Part shown: one piece after another, positions 18,743-37,576 of the stretch
Numbering within the stretch: position 1 is the first letter of the stretch
How the letters are laid out: each line of letters begins with the position of its first letter
IMG/VR virus record: IMGVR_UViG_3300000101_000019
Coordinates: 1 to 52,835 of that record
Length of the DNA stretch: 52,835 nt
Origin: a virus
Direction: 5' to 3' (one strand)
The notes under the pieces: generated by a model
Databases searched by the model: none
The model's input: only the letters and a program-made list of their open reading frames with translations
Told to the model about the DNA's origin: nothing
Translations under genes and position numbers: made by a program

Positions 18743-19062
18743 TGGACTTACACCAGAGAACTTTAGCATTAATGGAACAGCTAGACAACTTAACAAATAA
18801 ATTTGATACTGAACAAAAAACCATGCTTAAAGGCATGAGAGAAAAACAAGCAACTAAAGCTGGGTGGACTAGATACAGAGACTGTCAGAAGTTTTTTACT
18901 AATGCTAGAAAAGAACTAAACAGTGCTACTAATGATTGCTTATCAGCAGTTAACAAGCCCAGCATAAGTAAAATTAAAACTATTGAAGCTAGAATACAAG
19001 TATTTGATGATAGCTGGCAAATTGCTAGACAATATAGTATGATTGGATTATTATCAGGATGA
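18742..19062 (+). CDS. Small coiled-coil hypothetical protein
   Basis: A 106-residue, largely helical protein beginning at the ATG at 18742, which overlaps the preceding stop (TGATG). It has heptad-like patterns in LHQRTLALMEQLDNLTNKFDTEQ (two pieces, about 3-24) and ISKIKTIEARIQVFDDSW (about 77-94), with a basic middle. No family recognised. Coupling to the UvsY-like gene and the following methyltransferase places it at the junction of the recombination and accessory regions. Confidence 0.6.
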   Translation: MDLHQRTLALMEQLDNLTNKFDTEQKTMLKGMREKQATKAGWTRYRDCQKFFTNARKELNSATNDCLSAVNKPSISKIKTIEARIQVFDDSWQIARQYSMIGLLSG

Positions 19063-19826
19063 TTTTTGCAAGTGAACTTGACAGTCATCAGCACAGTTTA
19101 GATACATTAAATCGCTTAAACAGTCATTATGACTTTAAAATAAGTGTTGGAAGTGTTCTAGATGTAGGTTGCGCTACAGAGCTCATGGACCTAAGGTACT
19201 GGGCTAATTTAACGGACGAGCTTAATGCAAATGAGCCTAACAAGTCTTTAAACATAAATTGTGTTGGGTTAAGCAATCTAGACATTCCAAAACCAACTGA
19301 AAAAAATATTAAATTTAGAAAGCAGGACTTCAACGTTGATCATGGCTTTGGTAAATTTAAAACTCAGTTTGATGTAGTATGGTGTCATGATGTAATGCAG
19401 TATAGCTGGAGTCCAATTTGGTTTTTAAACAATATTAACCAGGTTATGTCAGATGGAGCAATGCTTTATTTGTGTGTTCCTAGTACTGTTAATGTACTAT
19501 ATAATCAGTTTACTAGTTATACGCCTAGTCATTGCTATAACACGTTTACAATAACACAAATACTTTATTTGTTAGCACTGAATGGCTTTGAGATCAAGGA
19601 TTTCCATATAAAGAAAGAGCCTTTTGTAGACATAATTGAAGCAGTTACTTATAAAAATACTGAACCATTGGACTATAATACTACGTGGTATGACTTAATG
19701 GAAAAAGATTTGCTATCAGATAGTATGGCAGAGATTGTACAACGTAACGGGTATCTTACTAATCAAGGCCTTATTAGCAAATGGTTGGATGGTACTGTAT
19801 ATGACTATCGATACGAAGCTAGATGA
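19059..19826 (+). CDS. Class I SAM-dependent methyltransferase
   Basis: A 255-residue protein with a Rossmann methyltransferase core. VGSVLDVGCATELMDLRYW (about 31-48) is the SAM-binding motif I, NINCVGLSNLDI (about 66-77) fits motif II, FDVVWCHDVMQYSW (about 107-120) motif IV, and GAMLYLCVPS (about 134-143) the later strand. It resembles UbiE/type-11 methyltransferases that act on small molecules or sugars. The substrate is unknown. It opens the accessory cassette and overlaps both neighbours by four bases. Confidence 0.75.
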   Translation: MIFASELDSHQHSLDTLNRLNSHYDFKISVGSVLDVGCATELMDLRYWANLTDELNANEPNKSLNINCVGLSNLDIPKPTEKNIKFRKQDFNVDHGFGKFKTQFDVVWCHDVMQYSWSPIWFLNNINQVMSDGAMLYLCVPSTVNVLYNQFTSYTPSHCYNTFTITQILYLLALNGFEIKDFHIKKEPFVDIIEAVTYKNTEPLDYNTTWYDLMEKDLLSDSMAEIVQRNGYLTNQGLISKWLDGTVYDYRYEAR

Positions 19827-20686
19827 GAATAACACACTTTCCAAATAACTTACCAACTAACCAAAATCTTGTATATCCACAACTAATTAACGCTATTAAA
19901 TCAACAGACGAACTTGTTGAAAGTGACTGGGATGCTGATGTTGCACTGATATGGAGCGTACTCTGGTTTGGCAAAATGAGTGCTAACAAACGAGTATGGG
20001 AAAAGTTTCGTGAAGCTGGAAAGCCAGTTATTGTAATTGAAGTTGGTGGTCTAATACGTAACGAAACCTGGAAGTTAGGTATAAACGGAATTAATCGCGA
20101 TGCTGATTTTGCATTAGATTTAGGAATAAACCGTGACAGACTATCCAAATTTAACTTGTCTAAACAACCCTGGGTTATGGGCGATAAGCCTTATATTTTA
20201 GTATGTGGACAACACGCCCATAGTTTACAGTGGGAACACATGCCAGACATGGACACCTACTTTAGAGATACTGTAACTGATATACGCAAGTACAGTGATA
20301 AAACTATAGTACTTAGAGCGCACCCACGTTTTAGGGAAAACGTGCATTTTCCATTAAGTGATCCAGACTGGTACAAGGAACAAAACTGCGAATGGAATAT
20401 TGCTAAACATGTACATAAAACCTATGATAGTTTTGACTTAGAAGATCAGCTTAAAGAAACTTGTATGACTGTAAGTTTTAGTAGTAACGCTGGAGTAAAT
20501 AGTGTTATACAAGGTATACCTACTGTGGTTAGTAAACATAGTTTAGCATGGGATATGAGTAGCACGTATAAAGAGTTTAAGTTTCCGTCCAGAACAAAAT
20601 GGTTGCATACTATGGCTAACATTGAATATTTTCCAGACGAAATTGATATACAGTGGAAACGAATTAGACAAAAGTTAGAGGGATAA
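19823..20686 (+). CDS. GT-B-like glycosyltransferase paralogue 1
   Basis: A 287-residue protein. It shares a pattern with those at 28557, 31507 and 32319: an ITDIRKYSD-type helix followed by a strand with R-x-H/K-P (here TIVLRAHPRF, about 156-165), then near the C-terminus a Ser/Asn turn and a GIP-V motif (VSFSSNAGVNSVIQGIPTVV, about 216-235). This layout fits GT-B-type capsular polysaccharide or glycerophosphotransferase-like enzymes. Donor and acceptor are unknown. It starts in a four-base overlap with the methyltransferase gene. The catalytic call is inferred from fold-like motifs. Confidence 0.5.
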   Translation: MRITHFPNNLPTNQNLVYPQLINAIKSTDELVESDWDADVALIWSVLWFGKMSANKRVWEKFREAGKPVIVIEVGGLIRNETWKLGINGINRDADFALDLGINRDRLSKFNLSKQPWVMGDKPYILVCGQHAHSLQWEHMPDMDTYFRDTVTDIRKYSDKTIVLRAHPRFRENVHFPLSDPDWYKEQNCEWNIAKHVHKTYDSFDLEDQLKETCMTVSFSSNAGVNSVIQGIPTVVSKHSLAWDMSSTYKEFKFPSRTKWLHTMANIEYFPDEIDIQWKRIRQKLEG

Positions 20687-20694
20687 GTAATTAT

Positions 20695-21600
20695 ATGCGT
20701 ACAATAGCAGTGTTTAGTACCTGGCATCCAACCGGATATAAAAAGTATGGCAAAGACTTTGTTAAGGGTTTTTTGCAAAACTGGCCCACGGAAGTTAACT
20801 TAACAATATATGCTGAAGATCATGAGCCTGAAACATATAATGCAGATAATATTGAAGTATTAGACCAAGTAGCTACATTGCCTGATTTAAAATCCTGGCA
20901 GGCACGGCACAAAGATAACGACTCAGCACATGGATGGAACAAAGATCATACTAAGAAAAGTTTTTTATGGGATGCTAGTAGGTTTGCTAACAAGGTCTTT
21001 GCCTTATGGCATTTCGCTAAATACACAAAAGCAGATATAATGATCTGGTGTGATGGAGATGTAAGGACCCACACGCCCATGCCTTTCGATTTTTTACAAG
21101 ATATAGCTCCAAAAGAAGATCAACTTGTAACATTCTTAGGAAGAAAGACTTGGCCAGAGTGCGGATGGATGATGTTTAATAGGCATCACCCTGATTTTGA
21201 TAGTTTTATGGATCAGTGGCGATGGATTTACGAAAGTGACGACATCTTTAATCATGTTGAATATCACGATAGTTTTATATTTGGCGAACTAGTACAAGAC
21301 TTTGTTCAGTCAGGAACAGCGGTTAATAATCTTGGTGGCCCTGATCAAGGCGGTCACATTTTTATTAATACTGCTCTTGGAAAGTACATGGATCATCTTA
21401 AAGGGTTCCGTAAGGAAGTAGGCAAAAGCCTGGCTGGAGATCTCACCGGACAATTCAATCATCACGATAACCCATGGTGGCAAGACGTACGACAAGTCAC
21501 AAAGGCAGAGATACGTGCAGAAAAAATGAAGAAGCCGCATGAGTATGATGTGGAACAACAACAAAAATCAGGCGGCTTACAAAAAAAATGGAAAGATTAA
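20695..21600 (+). CDS. GT-A-like glycosyltransferase
   Basis: A 301-residue protein. A DxD-type motif occurs in ADIMIWCDGDVRTHTPMP (about 113-130), preceded by FANKVFALWHFAKYT. The region GRKTWPECGWMMFNRHHPDF (about 149-168) and YHDSFIFGELVQD (about 190-202) fit sugar-nucleotide-dependent GT-A enzymes of phage accessory regions. The acceptor is unknown. The spacing of eight bases from the upstream gene suggests co-transcription. It directly precedes the fibre-like gene, so glycosylation of that protein is possible but unproven. Confidence 0.6.
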   Translation: MRTIAVFSTWHPTGYKKYGKDFVKGFLQNWPTEVNLTIYAEDHEPETYNADNIEVLDQVATLPDLKSWQARHKDNDSAHGWNKDHTKKSFLWDASRFANKVFALWHFAKYTKADIMIWCDGDVRTHTPMPFDFLQDIAPKEDQLVTFLGRKTWPECGWMMFNRHHPDFDSFMDQWRWIYESDDIFNHVEYHDSFIFGELVQDFVQSGTAVNNLGGPDQGGHIFINTALGKYMDHLKGFRKEVGKSLAGDLTGQFNHHDNPWWQDVRQVTKAEIRAEKMKKPHEYDVEQQQKSGGLQKKWKD

Positions 21601-21619
21601 ATCAAAGGAATCAATTGAT

Positions 21620-23470
21620 ATGAGCGCAGAACAAGATAAAGCCAATGCTCAGGCTAGAAAATCACAAGAGGAGCAAAAGAAGTCACAAGCGGAGAGTCAA
21701 AAGCATCAAGCTGAGTTGCAAGAACAATCCGCTAACCAAAACAAAGCAGCAGCACAGTCTAAGCAAGAAGCCGCCGCCACTCAACAAAAACAAGCAGAAG
21801 CAGATGCTGCTAAAGCACAAGCTGACCATGATGCAGCCGTTGCAGACGAACAGCAAAAAGCAGACGAATATGCGGCGGCCCAAGCACAAGTTGCTCAGTC
21901 TGCTGCAATGGTCGAACAAGTTAGTAAACCACAATATACAGTTTCAGTAGGCGCACACGTTGCAACTGCGGTTGCTCAACAAGTAGGAAATGACCAAGCA
22001 GGAGCAAGTTATGAAGCAGAAGCTCATGCAGGTGCTGAAGCAGGCGCAAGTGCTGGTTATGAAGTAACTGATCATAGTGTTGCGGCAGGGGCAGAAGTTC
22101 ATGCTAGCGCAGAAGCAGGGGCAAGCACAAGTGGTGAAGCACATGCTGAACAAGAACTTGCTCCTGGTCTTACAGCCCACACAAGTGCTGAAGGTACTGC
22201 TGAAGCACATGCTAGTGCAGAAGCAGAAGCACACGCTGAAGGCAGTGCAGGCTGGGACGGAAGTGATGCAACTGCGGCTGCTGACATTGGAGCAAGCGCA
22301 AGTGCAGAAGCTGGTGTAAGCGGAAGTGTTGATGCTGAAGTTGGTCTAGATACACCACTAGGTGATGTTAGTGTAGATGCTGGTGCAGACGGTGATGCCA
22401 GCGTACACGCAGAAGCATATGCAGAAGCTGGTGCTCATGCAAGTGTAGGTGAACATGGAGTTGACGTAGGTGGCGGTGCTATTGCCGGTGCAAACGTTGG
22501 CGCCGGTGCAGAAGGATCTGCTCACTTAGGTGGCGCAGAAGTAAGTGCAGGTACAGAAGTAAGTATCGGTGCACAGATTGGTGCTCAAGGCTCTGCTCAT
22601 GCTACATACGAAGATGACACAATCTCGTTTGGTATTGACGGACAAGCGGCTTTGCTAGTTGGACTAGATGTTGACGTAAATGTTGACATTGATATTGGCC
22701 CACTAGTTGACGGTGCTAATGCAATCTTAGATGCAGGCGGAACCATTGATGAAGCAATGGATCATGTTACAGATGGAATTGACAAAGCACAAGACGAAGC
22801 AATTAAAGTTGCTAAAGAAGCAGAACAAACAGCAAAAGACGTTGCTATAGTTGCAGACAAAGCATACAAAGGTGCTCAGTCAGCAGTTGTGTCAACAGAG
22901 CAAGCAGCCAATGATGCCGCTAAAGCATGCACCCAGGCCGCAAACGAAGTTGCACACTGGGGTAATGAAGTAGCAAACTGGACAAACCAAGCGTTTAGTG
23001 CTAAAAGCGTGGCTAATGCTGCTAGCAGTACTATTAATGCTTGTAATGGAGCGATTAACGATTGTAATAACGCTATTAATAGTGCAACAAAAGCAATCAA
23101 TGATGCCGCGGCAGCAGCTCAGAAAGCTGCCGAACAGGCCGCCGCCGCGACAGCTAAAGCCGCTAAAGATGCGGCAGATTGGTCTAAGAAGGCTGCTAAA
23201 GATACTGGCAAAGCGTTTAAGAAAGCGTTTAAGTGGAGTGACAGTAGACTTAAAGCAAATATCGAGTTTGCTTATGCTCATGAAGATATGAACGTATATA
23301 CATACAACTATATCTGGAGTAAAGAACTTGAAAAAGGCGTAATAGCCCAAGAATTACTTGAAACAAAATATGCTGATGCAGTAGAAATGCATGAGTCAGG
23401 ATATTATCAAGTAGACTATAATAGGTTACCACCACTTGAAGAAGCTACTACCTCTATTATAGAGGTATAA
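21620..23470 (+). CDS. Ala-rich fibre-like protein with C-terminal S74 chaperone domain
   Basis: A 616-residue protein with AAGGA before the ATG. Residues about 1-85 are a Gln/Lys/Ala coiled coil. About 100-340 are Ala/Gly/Glu/His-rich and repetitive (AGAEVHASAEAGAS type). About 370-530 are a second Ala-rich helical region. The C-terminal 75 residues match the S74 intramolecular chaperone: SDSRLKANIEFA with the self-cleaving Ser, YTYNYIW, KGVIAQELLE, and YYQVDYNRL. S74 domains trimerise fibres and adhesins and then cut themselves off. It is likely a tail fibre, whisker or decoration protein. It has no known receptor-binding module. Confidence 0.72.
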   Translation: MSAEQDKANAQARKSQEEQKKSQAESQKHQAELQEQSANQNKAAAQSKQEAAATQQKQAEADAAKAQADHDAAVADEQQKADEYAAAQAQVAQSAAMVEQVSKPQYTVSVGAHVATAVAQQVGNDQAGASYEAEAHAGAEAGASAGYEVTDHSVAAGAEVHASAEAGASTSGEAHAEQELAPGLTAHTSAEGTAEAHASAEAEAHAEGSAGWDGSDATAAADIGASASAEAGVSGSVDAEVGLDTPLGDVSVDAGADGDASVHAEAYAEAGAHASVGEHGVDVGGGAIAGANVGAGAEGSAHLGGAEVSAGTEVSIGAQIGAQGSAHATYEDDTISFGIDGQAALLVGLDVDVNVDIDIGPLVDGANAILDAGGTIDEAMDHVTDGIDKAQDEAIKVAKEAEQTAKDVAIVADKAYKGAQSAVVSTEQAANDAAKACTQAANEVAHWGNEVANWTNQAFSAKSVANAASSTINACNGAINDCNNAINSATKAINDAAAAAQKAAEQAAAATAKAAKDAADWSKKAAKDTGKAFKKAFKWSDSRLKANIEFAYAHEDMNVYTYNYIWSKELEKGVIAQELLETKYADAVEMHESGYYQVDYNRLPPLEEATTSIIEV

Positions 23471-24043
23471 GTGCAAAAGGTAGACTTATATCGAGTACAG
23501 TATTTGACTGGGTGTTTTGAAAAAGTAAACACCCAGTCGATTGCTCTAAAGGTATTAAAAAAATATTACGCTAAAAAAAATATGAGTGACAGCGTTCACA
23601 GTATTCGTCATGAAGACATTAGAATAGATTTTGATAGCGAAATACAGGATCTAGGACAACTACAGATAAACGCATGGAAAAATGCATATGGTGATGACAT
23701 TGAATGGTGCTGGGATAGTACTATGACAGAAGACGATCCAAATACAGCAGCCTGGGCAGTAGTTCATGGAAAAGGAGAATCAACTAACTTACATTCCCAT
23801 GAAACAGAAGACAACTACTCTGGCGGAGCTCATGTAAGTAGTGCGTTTTGGGTACAATGCCCGCCAGACAGTGGAGACTTTGTCTTTCAATATAAAACTA
23901 ACCCTTATAATACTGAACAGCATGAAATTACACCTAAAGTTGGCCATTTCGCTATGTTTGACAGTACCCTTCCGCATTATGTTACTAAAAACTTTACAGA
24001 CCAATTACGTATTGTTATTAGTATGAATTTTAAACTGGTATAA
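23471..24043 (+). CDS. Putative 2OG-Fe(II) oxygenase (phage type)
   Basis: A 190-residue protein starting at a GTG immediately after the fibre stop. The C-terminal half has NLHSHETEDNYSGGAHVSSAFWV (two pieces, about 102-123) with an H-x-H metal-binding pair, then KVGHFAMFDSTLPHYVTKN (about 157-175) with the distal His, and LRIVISMNF (about 180-188) with the oxoglutarate-binding Arg. This matches the putative 2OG-Fe(II) oxygenase family frequent in T4-like cyanophages. These enzymes hydroxylate proteins or small molecules. The substrate is unknown. Its contact with the fibre gene hints at a virion substrate. Confidence 0.7.
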   Translation: MQKVDLYRVQYLTGCFEKVNTQSIALKVLKKYYAKKNMSDSVHSIRHEDIRIDFDSEIQDLGQLQINAWKNAYGDDIEWCWDSTMTEDDPNTAAWAVVHGKGESTNLHSHETEDNYSGGAHVSSAFWVQCPPDSGDFVFQYKTNPYNTEQHEITPKVGHFAMFDSTLPHYVTKNFTDQLRIVISMNFKLV

Positions 24044-24051
24044 TATACGCA

Positions 24052-24059
24052 TATAAATA
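24052..24059 (+). promoter_or_regulatory. Perfect T4 late promoter motif before the second oxygenase
   Basis: An exact TATAAATA lies nine bases after the previous stop, 76 bases before the ATG at 24135. Nothing else between 24044 and 24134 is clearly coding. Confidence 0.6.
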
Positions 24060-24134
24060 AAGCTATAGATAAGGAAATTCAATTAATGGTTACTGATTCA
24101 CTGAACATTCTGGAAAAAATGTAAGGAAGTTTAC

Positions 24135-24905
24135 ATGGAAAATATAAGCGTATTGCAAAATCTTCATACTGTCTTTAATCATCCTTATCCTCATATTTGT
24201 ATTGAGGATGCGTTGCCTGATAGTGTGTATGATGAATTAGAGGACACTTTTCCAGAAGAATTAGTTACTAGTACACAACCACACGACAATGGGATATGTT
24301 ATAGATATAAAGCAAACCCTGCGCTAGTGGATAAAGTAATCCCACAAATTTGGCAAGACTTTTTTGAGTATCACACAAGCAAAGAGTATTTCTTACAATG
24401 CATTAATGCTTTTGAACCGCATATTGAAAAAAGATATCCAGACTTATTAGAAAAGTTGTATGCTGGCACTGTAGCTATACGTGATGTTGATAAAGATGGA
24501 GACTACGTAACTGATTGTCAGTTTGTAGTACATGAGCCTGTGGATCAAACAGGAACTAGTCGAACTCCACACATTGATAATCCAGTGGAAATATATGCTG
24601 GACTGTTATATATGCGTAAACCCGGAGATGAAAGTGCTGGTGGTAACTTTACTATCCATGAATGTACTGGAGAAATTGTTCAAGTAAACAAAACACTGGG
24701 CAGACAGGTAGACGATAATTTACATACTCCAATTAAACAAGTACCATACAAGCGTAATACATTTTGTATGTTCTTAAATGTGCTAGGAAGTGTGCATAGT
24801 GTTACGCCACGTATTAACCCTGAGCATCGTAGACATAGTATTAACATTATTGGAGAGTTTAACGGCACTGGCAAGATGTGGAAAGTTAAAGAAATTAAAA
24901 GTTAA
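24135..24905 (+). CDS. 2OG-Fe(II) oxygenase (prolyl-hydroxylase-like)
   Basis: A 256-residue protein. TPHIDNPVEIYAGLLYMR (about 138-155) carries the H-x-D metal pair. VPYKRNTFCMFLN (about 202-214), then SVHSVTPR (about 218-225) with the distal His, and RRHSINIIGEF (about 232-242) complete the double-stranded beta-helix signature. The family oxidises peptides, sugars or lipids. This protein is distinct in sequence from the oxygenase just upstream. Its stop overlaps the next ATG. GGAAG about eight bases upstream supports the start. The substrate is unknown. Confidence 0.72.
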   Translation: MENISVLQNLHTVFNHPYPHICIEDALPDSVYDELEDTFPEELVTSTQPHDNGICYRYKANPALVDKVIPQIWQDFFEYHTSKEYFLQCINAFEPHIEKRYPDLLEKLYAGTVAIRDVDKDGDYVTDCQFVVHEPVDQTGTSRTPHIDNPVEIYAGLLYMRKPGDESAGGNFTIHECTGEIVQVNKTLGRQVDDNLHTPIKQVPYKRNTFCMFLNVLGSVHSVTPRINPEHRRHSINIIGEFNGTGKMWKVKEIKS

Positions 24906-26128
24906 TGAAAGACAACAGATATGCTATCGGTAAAAGCAGTGGTGTTTTCATTAATGAAGATTCTGTTGTTAAGATATTTAATATTCGAAACAAAGGTATT
25001 AAAGCTGCTCGCGGAAGTTATGAGTTATGTTGGCTTAGAGAAGTAGAATGTTTAACTAGACTAGAAGGGCAAATACACTTTCCGCAGATCCTAGAACATC
25101 ACAAAGATCATCTTGGTCTTAGAATGACAACTGTTGGAGAAAGTTTATTTGACACCTGGCAAGAACATAATTTAAAGCTGTATATCGATCAAGCACATAC
25201 TATTGCAGATTCACTTGAAGCGGCAAATATACAATATTTTTACCCAGGCATGGATCCTGCAAGTAAAACAAAACAGTACACAAAGTTTCCTTTAAGTAAT
25301 TTTTGTATTGAAGATGGAGAAATAAGTTTAATAGATTACGAGTTAGCAAATCCGGTTGGTGGTAAATCTGAACCACAAATGAGCGATAGACTCAGATATC
25401 TATATGATAATTATAATAAAGACCATTTTAGACAATCACTGATTAACGCCTTGGAAAATCCGCAGGAGTGTTATCAGTCTGAATTAATGGCTAAGTTGGT
25501 TGACAAGGATAAGTTTCCTATGTTAGCATCAAAGAACCCTAGAGAGGTATGGAAGTCAATGACAGCATTTACACAACCCAGCGAAAAAATTGTTAAAGAA
25601 TGGAAGCGTTACCAAAAACGCTACGGTATCAATGATGCAACTGATCGTGTTGAACGTATGAAGCTCAGTGAAGTATGCAAGCCTGAAGATAAGTTGCTCG
25701 ACATCGGCTGTAATGATGGTTACATTACTATGTTAGTTGCTCCAATGGTTGCAAGTGCAACTGGAGTTGAACCACATGTAGAGTTACCTAGAACAAAACC
25801 CAGTAATGTTAAGTGGATAAAATCAACATTTAACGAGTTCCTAGAGGACACATACAAGCAATATGATGTACTATTAAGCCTGGCAGTTAGCATTCAGTTA
25901 CGTGATTTTGGCGGACTTACTGAACAAGAAATTGTAGATGGATATGCTAGTCTATTAGTACCCGGTGGCATTGTTGTACACGAAACGCAGAAACTCCATG
26001 AACGGCCAAATAATCAGGAACACACTGCTAACATGTTGGATGCATTTGCTACTAAGTTTGAGCAAATTGATCACGGTAACGCAAGACCCAGCGGAGGTCG
26101 CGAGTACTATCATTTTAGGAAAAAGTAG
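24905..26128 (+). CDS. Kinase-fold / methyltransferase fusion
   Basis: A 407-residue two-domain protein. The N-terminal half resembles a small-molecule or protein kinase: an SSGVF loop (about 10-14), SVVKIFNIR (about 20-28) with the likely ATP-binding Lys, LREVECLTRL (about 46-55) with the paired Glu, and LSNFCIEDGEISLIDYELANP (about 129-149) with catalytic-loop Asn and metal-binding Asp. The canonical H/R-D is missing. From about residue 250 it is a class I methyltransferase: LLDIGCNDGYITML (about 264-277), GVEPHVELP and a later LLVPGGIVVHE strand. The combination suggests phosphorylation and methylation of one substrate. The substrate is unknown. Confidence 0.6.
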   Translation: MKDNRYAIGKSSGVFINEDSVVKIFNIRNKGIKAARGSYELCWLREVECLTRLEGQIHFPQILEHHKDHLGLRMTTVGESLFDTWQEHNLKLYIDQAHTIADSLEAANIQYFYPGMDPASKTKQYTKFPLSNFCIEDGEISLIDYELANPVGGKSEPQMSDRLRYLYDNYNKDHFRQSLINALENPQECYQSELMAKLVDKDKFPMLASKNPREVWKSMTAFTQPSEKIVKEWKRYQKRYGINDATDRVERMKLSEVCKPEDKLLDIGCNDGYITMLVAPMVASATGVEPHVELPRTKPSNVKWIKSTFNEFLEDTYKQYDVLLSLAVSIQLRDFGGLTEQEIVDGYASLLVPGGIVVHETQKLHERPNNQEHTANMLDAFATKFEQIDHGNARPSGGREYYHFRKK

Positions 26129-26941
26129 ATGGCATTTAACAATATTATGCAGTTAGCAACTGCTCACATTACTAAACATTTACAACCTAACCCTACTGTA
26201 GTAGAGTGGGGAAATCAAAGGTTTAGGTACAGTAAAAAATGGACAGACAAGTGTAGTGAAGTTGCAGGAAAATCTATACGTGAACCAGTGCAGTATGTTT
26301 GGGAATATTTTGAGGATCTAGGTTTTAGTGACTATCTGGCAATTGACATTAATACTAAGTTACGTAGTATTGCAATGGATTTAAATTTTATACTTAAAGA
26401 CAAGTATAAGTACACGCAGCAATTTGATTTAGTAACTAACAATGGCACTGGAGAACATATCTTTGATCAAAGAACTGTATTTGAAAATATGCACAATTTA
26501 TGCAAGGTTGGTGGAGTTATGCTATGCGTATTGCCACTTGCTCCCTGGTTTAATCATGGCTTTTATAATTATCATCCTCAGTTATTCCGTGACATAGCCG
26601 CGGCAAACGGATATAAATGGGTTAACTTTTGGTTAGCACAAAACACTGGCAAGTATATAGAAGCACCAGTAGACATGGAAAGCTGGGGGTTTTATGAACA
26701 AAAGAAGCCACGCACACCGCTCAGTGAATTAGAAAGAGCCTATGACGATTTACATGAACGTGATGCTGGCAGGCCACATAATATCAGTATAGTGTCAGCC
26801 TATATGAAAACAAAAGACGATCCATTTAATATCCCAATGCAAGGACGTTATGTTAATGATGTAGTAGCTGAGCTAAAGACAGAATACAGTAACAACAACG
26901 TTGATGTAAGACAAAAGGATCACACCAGCGCAACTTATTAG
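26129..26941 (+). CDS. Class I methyltransferase-like protein
   Basis: A 270-residue protein starting at the ATG directly after the preceding stop. The SAM core appears as PTVVEWGNQRFR (about 22-33, replacing the usual G-x-G loop), YLAIDINTK (about 69-77), FDLVTNNGTGEHIF (about 99-112) and VGGVMLCVLPLAPWFNHGFYN (two pieces, about 127-147). The last block matches small-molecule methyltransferases of phage and cell-surface loci. The degenerate motif I may mean weak or altered SAM binding. The substrate is unknown; neighbours are methyltransferase, kinase and radical SAM genes. Confidence 0.6.
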   Translation: MAFNNIMQLATAHITKHLQPNPTVVEWGNQRFRYSKKWTDKCSEVAGKSIREPVQYVWEYFEDLGFSDYLAIDINTKLRSIAMDLNFILKDKYKYTQQFDLVTNNGTGEHIFDQRTVFENMHNLCKVGGVMLCVLPLAPWFNHGFYNYHPQLFRDIAAANGYKWVNFWLAQNTGKYIEAPVDMESWGFYEQKKPRTPLSELERAYDDLHERDAGRPHNISIVSAYMKTKDDPFNIPMQGRYVNDVVAELKTEYSNNNVDVRQKDHTSATY

Positions 26942-26952
26942 TAAATAGATAC

Positions 26953-28560
26953 ATGAAACCAAAGATACTGCTGGTATACCCAAATCTTCCACTAATGATG
27001 TCTCCGGCAATGAGCATGGCGATAATAAATGCCATTGGTAAACGTGAAGGCTGTGAAGTAGAAATATTTGAAACTACACAATACAGTAGTGAATTTAGTA
27101 ACAAGCACATTAGGCAAAGTGAAATCGGTGCCGTTAGAGCCAACAAAGACGATGAAGTCAAAGACATGTTTTATGTTGCTGACCCAAGTCAAATTATTCC
27201 AGATTTCTTAGCGCATGTAAACAAGTTTAAACCTGACATCATCATGATGAGTGTCCAAGAAGACGTTTATCGCATGGGCTTACAACTACTAGAAAGTATT
27301 AAACATTTAAACATACCAAACGTACTTGGTGGTGTATTAGTTATGAGCGATCCTATGCTAGTAGTATCTAACCCACTGGTACATCAGGTTTGTGTATACG
27401 AAGGCGAACGTGTAGTATTAGACATTATTAACTGTCTTAAAGCCGGAAAACGTATCAAAAACGTAAAAGGTACCTGGTACAAAGAACGTGACACATTTGC
27501 TATATATAAAAATCCACCACAGCCATTAACTGACATTACAGAAGTTATACCAGACTATACATGCTTTGACGTTAAACGCTGGAACAGGCCCATGGGCGGC
27601 AGAACATTTAATGCCGCAGTCAGCATGGAAACTTATCGCGGGTGTCCATATAATTGTACATACTGCAATTCACCTAATACTCGCAACATTGCAAATGTAT
27701 TTGATGTTGGTAATTTTATTAGGCGAAAAGATGCCAGCGTAGTGGAATCTGAGTTACTTGAGTTTAAAGAATTATATGATCCAGACTTAATTATGATACA
27801 GGACGACAGTTTCCTTGCACGACCAGCAAAAGAGATATATGCATTTTGTGAGATGTGGAGCAAGTATAAGATTCCATTTTGGATGAATACACGTATTGAA
27901 AACTGTAGACCAGAGTATTTGGAAGCTCTTAAAGAGGCTGGCATATATCGTATTAGTTTGGGTATTGAAAGTGGTAATGCAGAGTACAGAGAAAACGTAC
28001 TCTTGCGTAAAGTAAAAAACGAGAAGTATCAGCAATTTTTATCACATATTAATGACAGCAATATACCATATGGGTTAAACGTTATTGTTGGTATGCCATA
28101 TGAAACTCGCGATATGATAATGGAAACTGCTAGAATGGTTCGTGATGCTAGAGGATATGATGGCATTAACATTAGTATCTTCCAACCTTATAGAGGAACT
28201 AAACTCAGACAAATAGCAGTAGACGCTGGCTTTATGGATCCGGATCATATTAATGGTTGGGACAGTGGAGAGATAGGTGGTGGATTTATGGACAAGTGGG
28301 CTCTTACAATGCCTGAACCTTATATACAGGAAGCAGATCTTAAAGGAATAATTAAAACATTTGCATTATATTCTTTTTATGGCGACGAACACTGGCCACG
28401 TATACGTGAAGCTGAAACTAATGATGATCTAAGACAAGAATACATGGAAGATTATACAGCAAAGTTCTTTGATCCTCTGCAACAAGGAGGCGCAGATCGT
28501 ATACAAAAGTTTTGTGCAATGCACGACCATTCCAGTACCTATCAGTGGGTAGAAGCATGA
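26953..28560 (+). CDS. B12-binding-type radical SAM enzyme
   Basis: A 535-residue protein. Residues about 1-160 look like the cobalamin-binding Rossmann domain of class B radical SAM enzymes (KILLVYPNLPLMMS; DIIMMSVQEDVYRMG; VLGGVLVMSDP). The expected D-x-H-x-x-G has Tyr in place of His, so a lower axial His ligand is absent. The iron-sulfur motif is C-x3-C-x2-C at Cys231, Cys235 and Cys238, followed by a TIM-barrel with ISLGIESGN and a GMPYET segment. Family members methylate unreactive carbons or rearrange sugars and antibiotics. The substrate here is unknown. The 3' end overlaps the next ATG by four bases. Confidence 0.75.
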   Translation: MKPKILLVYPNLPLMMSPAMSMAIINAIGKREGCEVEIFETTQYSSEFSNKHIRQSEIGAVRANKDDEVKDMFYVADPSQIIPDFLAHVNKFKPDIIMMSVQEDVYRMGLQLLESIKHLNIPNVLGGVLVMSDPMLVVSNPLVHQVCVYEGERVVLDIINCLKAGKRIKNVKGTWYKERDTFAIYKNPPQPLTDITEVIPDYTCFDVKRWNRPMGGRTFNAAVSMETYRGCPYNCTYCNSPNTRNIANVFDVGNFIRRKDASVVESELLEFKELYDPDLIMIQDDSFLARPAKEIYAFCEMWSKYKIPFWMNTRIENCRPEYLEALKEAGIYRISLGIESGNAEYRENVLLRKVKNEKYQQFLSHINDSNIPYGLNVIVGMPYETRDMIMETARMVRDARGYDGINISIFQPYRGTKLRQIAVDAGFMDPDHINGWDSGEIGGGFMDKWALTMPEPYIQEADLKGIIKTFALYSFYGDEHWPRIREAETNDDLRQEYMEDYTAKFFDPLQQGGADRIQKFCAMHDHSSTYQWVEA

Positions 28561-29483
28561 AAGTATTAGCATTTAGGCATCAATTTCAGGGCGCATTAGC
28601 AAATATGCGGTTTAGTCATCCAGAGATAGAGATAGTAGATTGGTTCGACAATCCATATCCAGAAGCAGATCATTACATTACATGTAACATATATTGCGAC
28701 AAGTTTAGGGAAGACCCAGTATTTTCTTTTGTTAAGATGAGTAACAAACCTTATATGATATTTGAGACCGCAGTGTTTAAAAGACAAGCACGTACAGGGG
28801 ATTGGCTAGATTGGCACTGGCGTTTAGGTTGGTGGCACTTGCTAGCACCTGGAAAGTTTAACAATAAGAACTCGCCTCCTGACAGATGGTTAGCACTTAA
28901 ACAAAGACAAGAACTAGAAGTACTGCCCTGGCGCAAACAAGGGGAACATATACTAATACCATTGCAAAAGAATAATGATAGTGTAGTACAAACTATGATG
29001 GACAGATATGGAAGTATGCGTAACTGGCTTAATCGCACAATACAAGATATACGTAAGTACAGTGATCGTCCTATACTAATACGTCCCAGCGCAAAAACAA
29101 ACCCATTAAGCTGGGCAGATGCTGAGAGGCTTCCGAATGTAAGTATAAGTACTACTTATAAAGACAACCCAAGCACAGACGGAACGAAGTTTACAAAAAA
29201 CATAGAGGGCGGGCCGGGATTATTGACAGAGCTAGCAGACGCATGGGCAGTTGTAGGTTATAACACAAGTACACTATTTGAAAGTATAACAGATGGTATA
29301 CCCACAGTAAGTTTAGATCCAGATGCACTCACTGTTCCTTGTAGTATAGAACTAGAGGATATTGAAGATCCTCCCATGAATATAGACCGCGAGCAATGGT
29401 TATATGACATGGCATATATAAGTTGGAGTATGGACGAAATGCAACGTGGTGTTGCATGGGAACATCTAAAAGGAAAGTATTAA
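28557..29483 (+). CDS. GT-B-like glycosyltransferase paralogue 2
   Basis: A 308-residue protein, starting at the ATG that overlaps the radical SAM stop (ATGA). Shared family features are LPWRKQGEHILIPL (about 123-136), TIQDIRKYSDRPILIRPSAK (about 160-179), DAWAVVGYNTSTLFESITDGIP (two pieces, about 230-251) and the C-terminal R-x-Q-W ... AYISWSMDEMQRG block. The N-terminal MKVLAFRHQFQG resembles the first strand of a Rossmann half. No signal peptide. The enzyme activity is inferred from the family layout only. It is followed directly by an overlapping small gene. Confidence 0.5.
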   Translation: MKVLAFRHQFQGALANMRFSHPEIEIVDWFDNPYPEADHYITCNIYCDKFREDPVFSFVKMSNKPYMIFETAVFKRQARTGDWLDWHWRLGWWHLLAPGKFNNKNSPPDRWLALKQRQELEVLPWRKQGEHILIPLQKNNDSVVQTMMDRYGSMRNWLNRTIQDIRKYSDRPILIRPSAKTNPLSWADAERLPNVSISTTYKDNPSTDGTKFTKNIEGGPGLLTELADAWAVVGYNTSTLFESITDGIPTVSLDPDALTVPCSIELEDIEDPPMNIDREQWLYDMAYISWSMDEMQRGVAWEHLKGKY

Positions 29484-29866
29484 TGTTTGGCCCTATTACT
29501 ATACCATATGAATGTGTAATGTTATATAACACTGCGACATTAAAGCCTGGAATAGACTTTGATGATGTTGAATTTGCTATTGCAGAGATGTGTCAACTTG
29601 TAAAAGATACATATCCAGACTTTATTGCTGGACAAGTGTTTAAATATGCTGGCTTTATAAGTGAAGAAGGCAGTGTTGGAGCACCAGGAGAAACTGAAGA
29701 GCATATCGCTATTGTCACATATTGGACTGACTTTGACACTCATGAGCAAAGTCATAAAGATGAAAAGTTTAAAACTGCATTTTCAGGTTTAATGGAATAC
29801 TGTACAGACACTAAAGAACTAGGATACGAGTTGCTCTGGCAGGGCGAGGCGGAGACAGATGTTTGA
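29483..29866 (+). CDS. Small hypothetical protein, possible dimeric alpha/beta-barrel fold
   Basis: A 127-residue protein that starts within the previous stop (TAATG). The C-terminal half, EHIAIVTYWTDFDTHEQSH (about 73-91) through FSGLMEYCTDTKEL to YELLWQGEAE, resembles the strand-helix pattern of antibiotic-biosynthesis monooxygenase-type ferredoxin-like domains. The N-terminal half has FDDVEFAIAEMCQLVKDTYPD. No catalytic residue is certain. It is coupled to a radical SAM gene, overlapping it by eight bases. Confidence 0.5.
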   Translation: MFGPITIPYECVMLYNTATLKPGIDFDDVEFAIAEMCQLVKDTYPDFIAGQVFKYAGFISEEGSVGAPGETEEHIAIVTYWTDFDTHEQSHKDEKFKTAFSGLMEYCTDTKELGYELLWQGEAETDV

Positions 29867-30815
29867 GATAGACAGAGCCGTTATAGAAATAAACGGAGGC
29901 TGTAACTATACTTGTCAGATGTGTCCGCAAACTAATCCTGACGGCTCAACTGGTGCTAGAGGTAAACCCTGGCTTAAAAAAATGCCAATCGCTATGTTCG
30001 AAGAGGCAGTTGCACAATGTGCTGAAGCAGGATTGGGCGTTGTTAATTTAGACGGTAGCGGAGAAGCAACCTTAAACAGAAACATGGCAGAGTATATTGC
30101 TATTGTAAAAAAATACGACGTTAAGTGTTTTATTTTTAGCAATGGATACCGCATGCATGGACAGTTTATGGAAGAATGTGTAGATGCTGGCTTAGACTTT
30201 TACAGGTTTAGTATCATTGGTTATAATAAAGAAACATACAAGACTTGGATGAACGTTGATAACTTTGATAAGGTTATAGAAAATTTACACGCTATGATGG
30301 ACTACAGCAAGGGAACTAACTGCCAAGTAGCCACTTATCATTTAATATTAGATAACGATAACATAGACTATGAAACAGAACAATACCGTAAAATAGTAGA
30401 CGCCGCTGGATGTAATACTGAGATATGGAAAATGCATAACTGGAGTGGCGTATATGATCCTGATTACTCTAGAGAAGGCAGAATCAAAACATGCGGAAGA
30501 CCATTTAGTCCGGACATTGTAATACGTGCAGGTGGCAATGATGGCAAAACAGGTGCAGTTCATCCGTGTTGTCAGGTATTAGGCAATGACAGTGCCGCAG
30601 TACTAGGACATTTTAGTGAAATGACTGTACAAGAAATTATGACAGGCGATTTATACGAAGAGCTTAGAGAACAACACCGCACAGGTAACTATCCAGATTT
30701 TTGTAAAACCTGTGACTTCTTAATTGATGATCCAGAAACCATGGTATACACTAACAGCGGCCGTAGCGAAATGCACATGAACGGAACTAAGTTTAGTCTT
30801 AATGATTACAGATAA
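29859..30815 (+). CDS. Radical SAM protein with SPASM-like C-terminus
   Basis: A 318-residue protein. The iron-sulfur cluster motif is C-x3-C-x2-C at Cys15, Cys19 and Cys22 (NGGCNYTCQMCPQ). The GE-type motif follows in VVNLDGSGEATLN (about 61-73). The C-terminal 100 residues contain CGRPF (about 209), HPCCQVLGN (about 229-237) and FCKTCDFL (about 286-293), fitting auxiliary cluster binding in a SPASM or twitch domain. Such enzymes modify peptides, sugars or cofactors. The next gene encodes an SGNH-type protein, a pairing repeated at 45.7-49.2 kb. The substrate is unknown. Confidence 0.75.
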   Translation: MFEIDRAVIEINGGCNYTCQMCPQTNPDGSTGARGKPWLKKMPIAMFEEAVAQCAEAGLGVVNLDGSGEATLNRNMAEYIAIVKKYDVKCFIFSNGYRMHGQFMEECVDAGLDFYRFSIIGYNKETYKTWMNVDNFDKVIENLHAMMDYSKGTNCQVATYHLILDNDNIDYETEQYRKIVDAAGCNTEIWKMHNWSGVYDPDYSREGRIKTCGRPFSPDIVIRAGGNDGKTGAVHPCCQVLGNDSAAVLGHFSEMTVQEIMTGDLYEELREQHRTGNYPDFCKTCDFLIDDPETMVYTNSGRSEMHMNGTKFSLNDYR

Positions 30816-30836
30816 TGTTTGTGGATAAGATATATC

Positions 30837-31526
30837 ATGATTATAAATGATTTAGAAATTTATGGAAGACGTAGTAACAAAACAATTGAGTTTATACACA
30901 TGTATACACAAAAACCTCTGGGAATTAAATGTAAATTTAACGAATGGGGGTTCCGCGGCCCAGACTATAATGAGTATGTTGGGCTTCCAGTTAATATATG
31001 TCTTGGAGACAGCTTTACAGTAAACACAGGCGGACCAGTAGAAGATTGCTGGGCAAGCCAATTAGAAGAAATACTGGGCTACCCTACACTCAACTTTGGA
31101 TTAGATGGTGCAGGGAACGATGCTATGAAGCTAATCTACGACCGTGTTATTAATTACTTTGACATACGGAATGTATTTGTTATGTATTCCTTTCTTCATA
31201 GACGACTAATACATGGCTTATTATCACAATCAGCAGAGTCAGACTTAGATATGAACATACGATATTTTGAACAACAATTTATACCAAACGCCCATTATAC
31301 ATTTATACCAGAATGGTGCTGGAGCGACGAAGAAGCTAATTATATTAGAGCAGAGTATCCACAACAATTGCCGGATAGTTATACTCAGTGGCAAGCAACT
31401 GGATACGCAAAAAAGAAACATCGTATACAGGCTTTAGACAAAGATCTATTTAATTCAGACGGTATGCACATGAGTCGAGAACGCAACCAATCAGTGGCAG
31501 AATACTTTGCTAAACTTATATTATAA
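30837..31526 (+). CDS. SGNH/GDSL hydrolase-like protein 1
   Basis: A 229-residue protein. The nucleophile block is VNICLGDSFTVNTGG (Ser in GDSF, about residue 61), the Gly/Asn blocks lie in LNFGLDGAGNDAMKLIYD (about 90-107), and the C-terminal Asp/His pair is in SDGMHMSRERNQSVAEYF (about 207-224). These are the SGNH esterase or O-acyltransferase motifs. I chose the ATG at 30837; an in-frame TTG at 30819 is possible, and the ribosome binding site is poor for both. Family members act on acetyl or acyl groups of glycans. It overlaps the next gene by about 20 bases. Confidence 0.6.
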   Translation: MIINDLEIYGRRSNKTIEFIHMYTQKPLGIKCKFNEWGFRGPDYNEYVGLPVNICLGDSFTVNTGGPVEDCWASQLEEILGYPTLNFGLDGAGNDAMKLIYDRVINYFDIRNVFVMYSFLHRRLIHGLLSQSAESDLDMNIRYFEQQFIPNAHYTFIPEWCWSDEEANYIRAEYPQQLPDSYTQWQATGYAKKKHRIQALDKDLFNSDGMHMSRERNQSVAEYFAKLIL

Positions 31527-32319
31527 TACTAATAATGAAGACAGTAAATGCAATTGGCTTATGGATAGTTTATTGCAAGGATGGCCTGGCTCAGCAACTG
31601 GAAACAGACATGCACCAGTAGATGCTCCTGGTGCGTTCTGGGGATTTATCCAAAACAATCATGTACTAATAGCAGACCATCAACGCCTGGAGTTTGACTG
31701 GTGGTTCTGGGACATGCCTTATTGGGGACGCTGGAACGGACTAAAAGAAGCGTTAAATCCAGATCAGGATTTTTACTGGAGAGTTAGTAGGAATAAAATA
31801 CATGAAACTGAAATACTAGAGCGACCGCGTGATAGGTTTGCTAATTGGAATATGCCGGTTTATCCGTGGAAAAAGACTGGATCAGAGATAATTGTTTGCC
31901 CTAGTAGCAATACAATGAGTGAATGGTGTACTAATAAAAACGAGCAAGAATGGACTGAGTCAACAATTAAAGAGCTAAAAAAACACACTGATAGACCAAT
32001 TAGAGTACGTTATAAACCCAGAGCTCAGGGAACCAGTGGTCCTAGTGTAGCACTGGTTCCATTTAATGAAGATATTAAAGACGCCTGGGCTGTAGTAACC
32101 AGTGTTAGCATGTGTGCTGTAGAAGCAATTTCAGCAGGCGTCCCAGTGTTTTGTGATCCTATCAGTTTTACTAGACCTGTTGGCAAAACCGAGCTAAGTA
32201 AAATAGAACAACCAGTTTATGGCAACAGAGAGCCCTGGTTTAATCACTTAGCGTATTGTCAATTTACACAAAAAGAAATTAAGTCTGGGATGGCTTATAG
32301 TATATTAACGGATCAATAA
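31507..32319 (+). CDS. GT-B-like glycosyltransferase paralogue 3
   Basis: A 270-residue frame from a TTG start; the true start is unclear. An ATG at 31561 (MDSLLQGWPGS) is the first in-frame methionine. Family features are VYPWKKTGSEIIVCPS (about 119-134), TIKELKKHTDRPIRVRYKPR (about 153-172), AWAVVTSVSMCAVEAISAGVPV (two pieces, about 196-217), and the best-preserved C-terminal block, REPWFNHLAYCQFTQKEIKSG (about 241-261). The protein lacks the longer N-terminal strands seen in its relatives. It ends in a one-base overlap with paralogue 4. Confidence 0.5.
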   Translation: MLNLYYNTNNEDSKCNWLMDSLLQGWPGSATGNRHAPVDAPGAFWGFIQNNHVLIADHQRLEFDWWFWDMPYWGRWNGLKEALNPDQDFYWRVSRNKIHETEILERPRDRFANWNMPVYPWKKTGSEIIVCPSSNTMSEWCTNKNEQEWTESTIKELKKHTDRPIRVRYKPRAQGTSGPSVALVPFNEDIKDAWAVVTSVSMCAVEAISAGVPVFCDPISFTRPVGKTELSKIEQPVYGNREPWFNHLAYCQFTQKEIKSGMAYSILTDQ

Positions 32320-33236
32320 TGGCAAAAAAGACTGTAATAGTTTATAGCACTGGACGACACAAGACCACAAAGTTAATGTTAAGGTTTGCTAGTGGAATAA
32401 ACCTTTTAGATGGTGCATGGTGTGCAGAGTTTAGAGGTATTGATCATTTTCTAGTCCATGGACTAGATCCTAAAGCTGATGCCATAGCAGTACTGGGTAT
32501 ACTACGTGGCACTGGTCTAGCAATGCAAGCCGCTGCAAGTAAAAATATTCCTAGATTTTATGTAGATCATGCATACTTTGATTCAGGTTATTCTGGCAAA
32601 GGCTGGATGCGTATTAGTAAAAACAGACACACTATGAACTACGTAAAGGATGTTGCCAAGGACAGATGGAAACTTTACTTCCAGGATCATAATGAGATAA
32701 TGCCCTGGAAAACTCGCAGTAACCGCGGAAACAAAATACTAGTATTGCCTCCAACTCATGCAGTACAGTGGTATTTTAACGCACAAGGATGGACAAACGA
32801 AATACTAAAGATTCTTCATGAGTCATTACCTAAACACATGCATGGCGATATTAAAGTTAGAACTAAACCTAATGAACCTATAGTAGACAAAGCAGGTAAT
32901 CTATTAAGATTAGATAGTCATAAAGACGAAAATCCAGTGTCACTAGAGCAAGATTTAGCAGAAAGTAATGTTGTAATATGTTACAACAGTAACGTAGCAT
33001 TGCAGGCTACCTTGCAGGGTATACCAGTTATATCTAACCTTCACTGTAGCACATATCCAATAAGCTATAGTATACACGACTTAGTTAAAGATACAAACAA
33101 TCCAGTATTTGACGCCGAACCTGACAGGTATGGGTTATGCAAATGGTTAGCATACAGTCAATTTAAAGCGGGAGAAATAGAAAATGGAAAAGCATGGAAC
33201 ATGTTGCTAAAGATGCAGGAAGATGCAGGAAATTAA
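32319..33236 (+). CDS. GT-B-like glycosyltransferase paralogue 4
   Basis: A 305-residue protein. The N-terminus KKTVIVYSTGRHKT starts with a Rossmann-type strand. IMPWKTRSNRGNKILVLPPT (about 127-146), GDIKVRTKPNEP (about 178-189), VVICYNSNVALQATLQGIPV (about 218-237) and KWLAYSQFKAGEIENGKAW (about 281-299) align with paralogue 3, which it directly follows. The two look like a tandem duplication that has diverged greatly. Together they may act on successive steps of one glycan. The activity is inferred. Confidence 0.52.
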   Translation: MAKKTVIVYSTGRHKTTKLMLRFASGINLLDGAWCAEFRGIDHFLVHGLDPKADAIAVLGILRGTGLAMQAAASKNIPRFYVDHAYFDSGYSGKGWMRISKNRHTMNYVKDVAKDRWKLYFQDHNEIMPWKTRSNRGNKILVLPPTHAVQWYFNAQGWTNEILKILHESLPKHMHGDIKVRTKPNEPIVDKAGNLLRLDSHKDENPVSLEQDLAESNVVICYNSNVALQATLQGIPVISNLHCSTYPISYSIHDLVKDTNNPVFDAEPDRYGLCKWLAYSQFKAGEIENGKAWNMLLKMQEDAGN

Positions 33237-36545: not shown

Positions 36546-36725
36546 TTACATACCGTTCTTTTTTTCTTGGATTTCTTTACGGCGTTCTTTAACAAGTTTA
36601 CCAATTTCACCCAAGTGCTTACGGGCACGAGCTGCCGCAGCTTTTACGCCTTTTTCTTCAAAACTAGCATGCTCTTTAACATACCCTTCAACGTGTTCTA
36701 GAATTTTATCATGATGTAATGACAT
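36546..36725 (-). CDS. Small Lys/Ala-rich histone-H1-like protein
   Basis: A 59-residue basic protein. I start it at the ATG at 36725, which has AAAGGAAAA upstream, rather than at the longer open frame. LHHDKILEHVEGYVKEHASF (about 3-22) forms one helix, and the second half, VKAAAARARKHLGEIGKLVK (about 26-45) plus KERRKEIQEKK, a second. The pattern matches small histone-H1-like proteins of marine T4-like phages and would be expected to bind DNA or acidic proteins. It overlaps the upstream fusion gene by 17 bases. Confidence 0.65.
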   Translation of the reverse strand: MSLHHDKILEHVEGYVKEHASFEEKGVKAAAARARKHLGEIGKLVKERRKEIQEKKNGM

Positions 36726-37500: not shown

Positions 37501-37513
37501 GTTTAAAACTCCT

Positions 37514-37521
37514 TATAAATA
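37514..37521 (+). promoter_or_regulatory. Perfect T4 late promoter motif before the 37577 glycosyltransferase
   Basis: TATAAATA lies in the divergent intergenic space, 56 bases before the ATG at 37577. The same interval also contains AT-rich -10-like sequence in both directions. Confidence 0.5.
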
Positions 37522-37576
37522 TATACGCATATTATATTATTATAATTATAGTTTATTATCAAGGAAAAATCAATAT

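Follow-up and report, generated by a model that had tools for sequence, protein, structure and literature searches.

Phage paralogues with a predicted KpsC-type fold, most of them lacking the catalytic nucleophile

Here, we report on a little-described phage protein family that is predicted to have a known fold, that of the KpsC-type glycosyltransferases, and in which most members lack the catalytic nucleophile. Bacteria employ this fold to attach Kdo, an acidic sugar, to their capsules and LPS. Four copies (g1 to g4) lie in the window, the whole 52,835-nucleotide stretch of DNA analysed here (IMG/VR record IMGVR_UViG_3300000101_000019), and their source is a marine phage related to T4. We think it probable that g1 to g4 are KpsC/WbbB-fold CMP-sugar transferases, as predicted from models and motifs, that make a phage-specified glycan on the host LPS or the virion.

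Retaining Kdo transferases, whose origin has been described as unclear (PMC10148158), work by covalent double displacement, a mechanism that earlier candidate glycosyltransferases proved not to use (PMC9587256). A single cassette that holds old paralogues with and without the nucleophile provides natural variants for testing the gain or loss of this mechanism. In addition, a family mostly annotated as hypothetical protein, and known from hundreds of phage contigs, often marine ones, gains a testable function; our search of the open-access literature turned up no description of a KpsC-type family in phages.

Four genes of one family

The first-pass annotation of this DNA proposed four diverged paralogues of one GT-B-like family, with starts at 19823, 28557, 31507, and 32319, and the genes are indeed there, all on the plus strand:

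19823-20686, plus strand: g1, class B; Glu73 at the base position, Ser221; family profile E 4.5e-52
28557-29483, plus strand: g2, class A; Glu70, Gln137-xxx-Asp141; family profile E 1.6e-52
31507-32319, plus strand: g3, class D of the D/K clade; family profile E 3.2e-85
32319-33236, plus strand: g4, class E of the D/K clade, its start overlapping the end of g3; family profile E 2.7e-64

The g2 start is the ATG at 28557, with a TTG in frame at 28512. That the genes form one family is borne out by blastp, in which all six pairs gave E < 4e-5 (20-protein set), and by a profile built from 104 relatives, with the window proteins and their near-copies left out. Against the 137 window ORFs this profile matched exactly g1 to g4 (E 4.5e-52 to 3.2e-85), the next-best ORF scoring E 8.1 at Z=100000, and profiles of single classes recovered the remaining three window genes at E 2.3e-9 to 2e-57. 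The motifs described earlier (a PW strand, IRKYSD/KKHTD, R-x-[K/H]-P, and a Ser/Asn turn with GIP-V) were found in g1 to g4. The LAY-x-QF-xxx-EI-xx-G C-terminus is also real, but it occurs family-wide and is not restricted to the last two genes, as had been thought.

Scans of the four proteins with Pfam, PHROG, and NCBIfam gave no model above cut-off. Pfam Capsule_synth (PF05159) matched no window protein and only 5 of 110 family members, weakly (best E 0.0075), while DUF6716, a putative glycosyltransferase family, matched 21 of the 110 (E down to 1.8e-5) and none of the window proteins.

A predicted KpsC-type fold

AlphaFold2 models of g1, the most divergent of the four window proteins, and of g3 (pLDDT 94.4 and 94.2) were compared with known structures, and g2 and g4 were placed by homology to these two. 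For g3, the top 28 Foldseek matches in the PDB were all retaining Kdo transferases (KpsC, WbbB, or KrkA), and for g1 the top 26 were all from these same three; VIA Z-scores to KpsC were 13.8 (g3) and 14.8 (g1) over 233-237 residues, above unrelated entries. Sequence profiles also select KpsC and WbbB from 177,635 PDB sequences, with weak E-values (0.0076-1.4), and their alignments match up the base, QXXXD, and HP columns. TagB and TagF were absent among the best 50 Foldseek or VIA matches for either model. On these models, g1 to g4 have the fold of the retaining beta-Kdo transferases KpsC, WbbB, and KrkA, by far the nearest known folds. The earlier guess of a GT-B-like fold related to KpsC was therefore right, and the modelled proteins did not fall into unrelated folds.

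The best match for both models is KpsC (GT107), the retaining beta-Kdo transferase of group 2 capsules, with which the phage proteins share a putative base on an EDGF/DxxY loop, R-x-[H/K]-P, and the phosphate Ser; class A is also like KpsC in having E, QXXXD, and H together. Unlike the dual-module KpsC, they are single modules of 270-308 aa with 12-14% identity to it, and g1, g3, and g4 lack QXXXD while g2, g3, and g4 lack the HP histidine. The N-terminal module of WbbB (GT99) has the same fold and gave the strongest PDB profile match (E 0.0076), over the (K/R)XHP and NSS motifs; this module exceeds the phage proteins in length by about 100 residues. Most of the phage proteins lack its nucleophile, and WbbB is an O-antigen enzyme, whereas the phage copies are cassette genes. 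KrkA (GT140), of the same structural superfamily, was among the top Foldseek matches. KrkA and the pseudaminic acid transferase KpsS1 (GT118) have divergent sequences and a common fold, with a general base located elsewhere, in a YE motif (PMC12887879).

Active site across the family

Active-site residues were taken from published work (PMC10148158; PMC9587256; PMC12887879) and mapped onto the family. The base position is acidic (D/E) in 288 of 289 members, being Glu in g1 and g2 and Asp in g3 and g4, as aligned to KpsC Glu66 through a weak profile match. The HP histidine position holds H, K, or R in 285/289 members; among 99 representatives, the Arg of (K/R)XHP is kept in 96 (R or K in all 99) and the phosphate Ser in 94. 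The covalent nucleophile of QXXXD, by comparison, is retained by 32 of the 289. In the D/K clade, which includes g3 and g4, His has become Lys and the nucleophile is lost, and the acid (59/60), Arg92 (59/60), R168 (59/60), and K/R170 (60/60) are kept. This clade accounts for over half of the members identified, a sample skewed toward it by the use of D/K members as the main search seeds.

Within the window, g2 is the sole copy with a complete nucleophile motif (Gln137, Asp141). It keeps R176 but has Ser178 at the HP histidine position, so that its RPSA does not conform to (K/R)XHP; in a 16-row alignment of class A, E70, Q137, and D141 are invariant and the H near-invariant. In g1 the QXXXD position reads Q130-H-A-H-S134, with the Asp replaced, and R165-x-H167-P168 (RAHP) conforms to (K/R)XHP. 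Both g3 (Asp69 at the base position, Arg92, R168-x-K170-P171, Ser201, Glu206) and g4 (Asp83 in DHAYF, R181-x-K183-P) have no QXXXD, and their RYKP and RTKP depart from (K/R)XHP.

The loss of the usual catalytic residue from most members, with other parts of the active site kept, suggests that family members without the nucleophile have an altered chemistry. Because QXXXD is missing from g1, g3, and g4, and the HP histidine from g2, g3, and g4, a Kdo donor is not readable from the sequence. We dropped the coupling of E with H and of D with K as independent evidence of co-evolution, since the change from H to K maps to one deep split in the tree and hence supplies one independent pair.

Age of the copies

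In the tree, g1 to g4 fall in four separate classes, each with orthologues in other phages (SH-aLRT 100 for the class B clade of g1). They are thus old paralogues, from a radiation older than this phage, which rules out recent duplication as their origin and overturns the initial view of multiplication within one genome. Gene-wide dN/dS to the nearest relative was 0.065-0.19 for the three copies compared, indicating purifying selection; in one more distant relative, two copies are much more diverged than the genes around them. The nearest relatives of g4 that are not copies of it are about 45% identical (IMG/VR), and the side-by-side g3-g4 pair recurs in other loci. Sequential addition of different sugars would be compatible with the four distinct active-site signatures. 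An arms race in surface structure, which the first-pass annotation also suggested, is neither borne out nor contradicted by these divergence values.

A glycan cassette

The four genes lie in a 16 kb run (19059-35362) of genes in one direction, mostly abutting or overlapping, with an additional small ORF in the gap at 29484-29858. The organisation agrees with the operon proposed in the first-pass annotation, but promoter and terminator scans of the run gave signal at shuffle level only. Other genes in and beside the run include:

19059-19826, plus strand: SAM methyltransferase (PF13489, 1.2e-6)
20695-21600, plus strand: GT-A-like family (by eye, no Pfam match), near arrays in 105/145 loci
21539-23470, plus strand: tail-fibre-like, with Ala-rich repeats and a C-terminal S74 chaperone domain (PF13884, 1.3e-4); its real start is probably further downstream
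23471-24043 and 24135-24905, plus strand: 2OG-Fe(II) oxygenase pair (PF13759, 4.1e-10; PF13640, 0.0015, below cut-off)
24905-26128 and 26129-26941, plus strand: methyltransferase pair (PF13489, 3.2e-7 and 5.9e-7), the former with a kinase-like N-terminal part (by eye)
26953-28560, plus strand: radical SAM enzyme with a B12-binding-like domain, adjoining g2 (PF04055, 8.1e-19)
29859-30815, plus strand: radical SAM/SPASM enzyme (PF04055, 1.3e-14; PF13186, 7.4e-7)
30819-31526, plus strand: SGNH/GDSL-like (weak), adjoining g3 (DUF6473, 0.0037; Lipase_GDSL, 0.0061; both below cut-off)
35342-36106, minus strand: GT-A-like family (by eye, no Pfam match), at the cassette end, near arrays in 75/145 loci
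36709-37500, minus strand: cytidylyltransferase-like and mannose-6-P-isomerase-type cupin fusion (PF01467, 9.6e-16; PF01050, 1e-18), by its domains a sugar-nucleotide type enzyme
37499-38272, plus strand: GT-A-like family (by eye, no Pfam match), near arrays in 116/145 loci

Elsewhere, arrays of 2-5 copies (lower bounds, some loci being incomplete) are usual, set among GT-A-like, methyltransferase, and sugar-nucleotide genes; recurrent neighbours are methyltransferases, GDP-mannose dehydratase, DegT aminotransferase, sulfotransferase, carbamoyltransferase, and GT29. A match on a Bradyrhizobium plasmid was rejected as a bacterial member, the replicon being a phage-plasmid. Two pattern scans of genome contigs found no bacterial chromosomal relatives, a result that does not show bacteria to be without the family because the patterns were few and some lay on poorly conserved stretches.

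Discussion

What might the four enzymes do? KpsC and WbbB (GT107/GT99) have a modified GT-B fold whose C-terminal Rossmann domain binds a CMP-sugar and whose N-terminal domain provides the acceptor base, an arrangement that the four phage proteins probably share. The donor may be Kdo or another acidic sugar activated with CMP, taken from the host. Each copy would form one linkage and, together with the GT-A-like enzymes, methyltransferases, and other cassette genes, would assemble a short glycan specified by the phage, its most likely site being the host envelope (LPS/O-chain), with the tail fibre as the alternative. With its base Glu and nucleophile Asp, g2 could carry out a KpsC-like covalent double displacement, despite Ser in place of the HP histidine. 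For g1, g3, and g4, direct displacement is most likely: the conserved Asp/Glu would serve as base, and the leaving phosphate would be held by the His or Lys of R-x-[H/K]-P. More tentatively, we suggest that the D/K clade, having kept the KpsC fold and base, lost the nucleophile, and exchanged His for Lys, now acts by single displacement (probably inverting), or else preserves the inverting ancestor of the Kdo enzymes. CMP-sugar synthetase (PF02348) was missing from 28 of the 29 records searched, most of them fragments, which fits drawing on the host CMP-sugar pool and also agrees with a donor other than a CMP-sugar.

We regard it as unlikely, though worth serious consideration, that the enzymes glycosylate the virion (tail fibre or capsid) rather than the host surface. 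The tail-fibre-like gene with its S74 domain and the 2OG oxygenase pair do lie inside the cassette, Caulobacter phages carry a pair of copies closely behind a tail protein, and the Bradyrhizobium phage-plasmid has its copy downstream of the portal gene. In Pelagibacter phage Mosig, however, the copies lie amid nucleotide-metabolism and methyltransferase genes, far from annotated tail genes, and the KpsC-fold enzymes with known function use lipid-linked or O-antigen glycans. Two changes, His to Lys/Arg throughout the D/K clade and loss of the Kdo-carboxylate-binding Q, would also fit a re-used KpsC-type fold with ordinary NDP-sugar (UDP/GDP) donors, in which Lys replaces His to hold the diphosphate, and GDP-mannose dehydratase genes lie near 26 of 145 loci, though none in the window. 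Set against this, the cytosine-contacting Arg of (K/R)XHP and the single-phosphate Ser are still near-invariant, and we find such a donor unlikely, though it too merits consideration.

The loss of the catalytic Asp could further mean that g1, g3, and g4 are catalytically dead partners, scaffolding or regulating a nucleophile-bearing copy, and 61 of 116 multi-copy loci do combine Q/H-type with D/K-type copies. Yet 53 such loci hold D/K members alone, dN/dS is low, and the identity of the acid, the Arg, and the Lys are conserved in the nucleophile-less clade as strictly as elsewhere or more so, making dead partners improbable. Several glycosyltransferases in a T4-related phage also bring to mind T4-style glucosylation of phage DNA. 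We rejected this as scarcely credible, as the thymidylate synthase/hydroxymethylase family (PF00303) is missing from all 10 records examined, which include fragments, the fold matches that of enzymes for capsule and O-antigen, and many of the neighbouring genes are sugar-modifying.

Comparable gene clusters and proteins occur in other viruses. The host recognition clusters of pelagimyophages, marine T4-like islands in which glycosyltransferases occur together with radical SAM and tail-fibre genes, have been proposed to alter the host O-chain; the passages of that report drawn on here name GT8 as the main family and do not mention a KpsC-type one (PMC7029224). At least four "capsule polysaccharide biosynthesis" proteins of Tetraselmis virus 1 have predicted structures that match g3 (E 2e-13 to 3e-9). 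They are 11-20% identical to g3 and belong to a giant virus, not a phage, whose host is an alga.

Family membership and fold

The source contig (55,614 bases in IMG/VR, the window covering 1-52835) is viral and belongs to a contractile-tailed, T4-related phage, based on PHROGs matches to tail sheath, tail tube, terminase, UvsX, ligase, and helicase. Its terminase is closest to those of PA5oct-type jumbo phages (53% identity). Four genes of interest sit within a one-directional gene run (19059-35362):

g1, 19823-20686, + strand, class B of the family tree
g2, 28557-29483, + strand, class A
g3, 31507-32319, + strand, class D
g4, 32319-33236, + strand, class E

Here, we propose that g1-g4 are most likely a set of predicted CMP-sugar-type transferases, one with a covalent nucleophile and three without. 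That they are four paralogues of one family, as the first-pass annotation suggested, is confirmed by a profile of 104 relatives (window sequences and near-copies left out; Z set to 100000), which picked exactly g1-g4 from 137 window ORFs (E 4.5e-52 to 3.2e-85; fifth ORF, E 8.1). Single-class profiles still recovered the other three paralogues (E 2.3e-9 to 2e-57), and chance is excluded as the source of the profile matches. No Pfam, PHROGs, or NCBIfam model scored above cut-off against any of the four.

AlphaFold models of g3 (pLDDT 94.2) and of g1, the most divergent (94.4), show that the earlier GT-B-like/KpsC lead was right in fold: every one of the best 28 Foldseek matches of g3 in the PDB, and of the best 26 for g1, is a retaining beta-Kdo transferase (KpsC, WbbB, or KrkA). 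VIA-align Z scores for g3 and g1 (210-243 residues aligned) were highest against KpsC (13.8 and 14.8), then WbbB (11.5 and 12.6) and KrkA (8.9 and 10.9); since the next rows reach 8.5 (g3) and 9.7 (g1), the g3-KrkA match scarcely stands out on this score. The Foldseek rmsd is large (6-13 Å) with a TM of ~0.5, and hence the domain arrangement may differ in detail. Independently of structure comparison, family sequence profiles searched against 177,635 PDB sequences retrieved KpsC and WbbB as best or nearly best matches, with weak E values (0.0076-1.4); for the class A subset profile, the top match was an unrelated synthase.

Active site

Retaining Kdo transferases have an Asp nucleophile in QXXXD, a CMP-holding (K/R)XHP motif, a Glu base, and phosphate-contacting serines (PMC9587256, PMC10148158, PMC12887879). 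We placed these residues on the phage family via profile alignments. An acid (D or E) fills the base column in 288 of 289 members, the HP histidine column holds K (197), H (74), R (14), or S/T (4), and QXXXD is present in only 32. Class A (g2 and 15 relatives) keeps E, Q, and D without exception and H almost always, g2 itself having Ser at the histidine position. While the fold is like that of retaining Kdo transferases, we did not class g1-g4 with that family because two of its defining motifs are each missing from three of these proteins.

Among 60 representatives of the g3/g4 clade, the acid, Arg92, and R168 (g3 numbering) are each conserved in 59, K/R170 in all 60, and Ser201 in 58, with V, I, M, or T in the nucleophile column for most. 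That the pocket is so highly conserved although the nucleophile is gone suggests an active enzyme whose chemistry differs, as opposed to a dead one. The H-to-K change is a single event on the tree and so is not usable as repeated evidence.

Age and distribution

The first-pass annotation had read the paralogues as multiplication within one genome. Instead, a tree of 99 representatives separates them into class B (g1; support 100), class A (g2), class D (g3), and class E (g4), and all four genes have orthologues in other phages. All four classes are present at locus L101 (B inverted), and a 110-kb relative, G001, carries four copies matching g1-g4 as one set, the g1 counterpart inverted. Identity between the window and G001 is patchy (radical SAM genes and g2 85-87%, g3 49%, g4 43%), and dN/dS against the nearest relative, L004, indicates purifying selection (g2 0.10, g3 0.065, g4 0.19). 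Taken together, this is an old family that has been shuffled, and its copies did not multiply recently. In L101, L103, L012, and G001, the orthologue of g1 is encoded on the opposite strand, and hence the cassette part around g1 flips; the same GT-A-like gene stands beside the inverted orthologue in L101, L103, and G001.

When 50,697 phage records were searched, g2, g3, and g4 each retrieved the same 16 (Caulobacter giant phages, Pelagibacter phage Mosig, and one freshwater podovirus); g1 as sole query matched none. Two small alignments used to scan IMG/VR yielded 327 and 65 confirmed stretches. Two to five copies occur in 129 of 154 copy-bearing sequences (153 fetched loci, some overlapping, plus the window), counts that are lower bounds because loci were cut, and at least two in 16 of 19 records searched in full. 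Named hosts are Alphaproteobacteria throughout, in a small and biased sample. The single plasmid match is a Bradyrhizobium elkanii phage-plasmid, the 67-kb pUSDA31-2 (portal, tail tube, and tape measure genes), which also encodes a GT9, a methyltransferase, and, downstream of its portal gene, the member of this family. In Tetraselmis virus 1, a giant virus of algae, at least four proteins are predicted to adopt the same fold (BFVD matches), so viruses of eukaryotes may also carry multi-copy KpsC-fold sets.

Glycan cassette

The commonest neighbours at 145 loci are three GT-A-like families unmatched in Pfam (near 116, 105, and 75 loci), followed by methyltransferases (58; both labels assigned by eye), asparagine-synthase-like genes (36), GDP-mannose dehydratase (26), and a cytidylyltransferase-cupin fusion (25); sulfotransferase, DegT aminotransferase, carbamoyltransferase, and GT29 genes also rank among them. 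The window run additionally has radical SAM enzymes, 2OG oxygenases, a GDSL-like gene, and an S74 tail-fibre-like gene. The run and these neighbourhoods are a glycan-building cassette, resembling the host recognition clusters of pelagimyophages, for which O-chain modification against co-infection has been proposed (PMC7029224).

No CMP-sugar synthetase (PF02348) was found in 28 of 29 records searched, which is compatible with a host-supplied CMP-sugar and also with a donor of another kind. The sole carrier, L155 (5.1e-29; G015, the contig of L013), has this gene within a few kilobases of family copies and is a good candidate for inferring the donor from gene context.

A small extra ORF (29483-29866; ~127 aa if read from the 29483 ATG) lies between g2 and the SPASM gene, its product resembling by eye a small ferredoxin-like monooxygenase; it is missing from L004 (95-99% identical), where the two flanking genes abut. 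By eye, 33237-34325 (WDxGxxNxxN...DYG-like motif) and the N-terminal part of 24905-26128 resemble a small-molecule or LPS-kinase fold; Pfam gave no support for the kinase-like part of the latter. Within the cassette and adjoining two 2OG oxygenases, 21539-23470 encodes a tail-fibre-like protein with low-complexity Ala/Glu/His-rich repeats followed by a terminal S74 chaperone domain.
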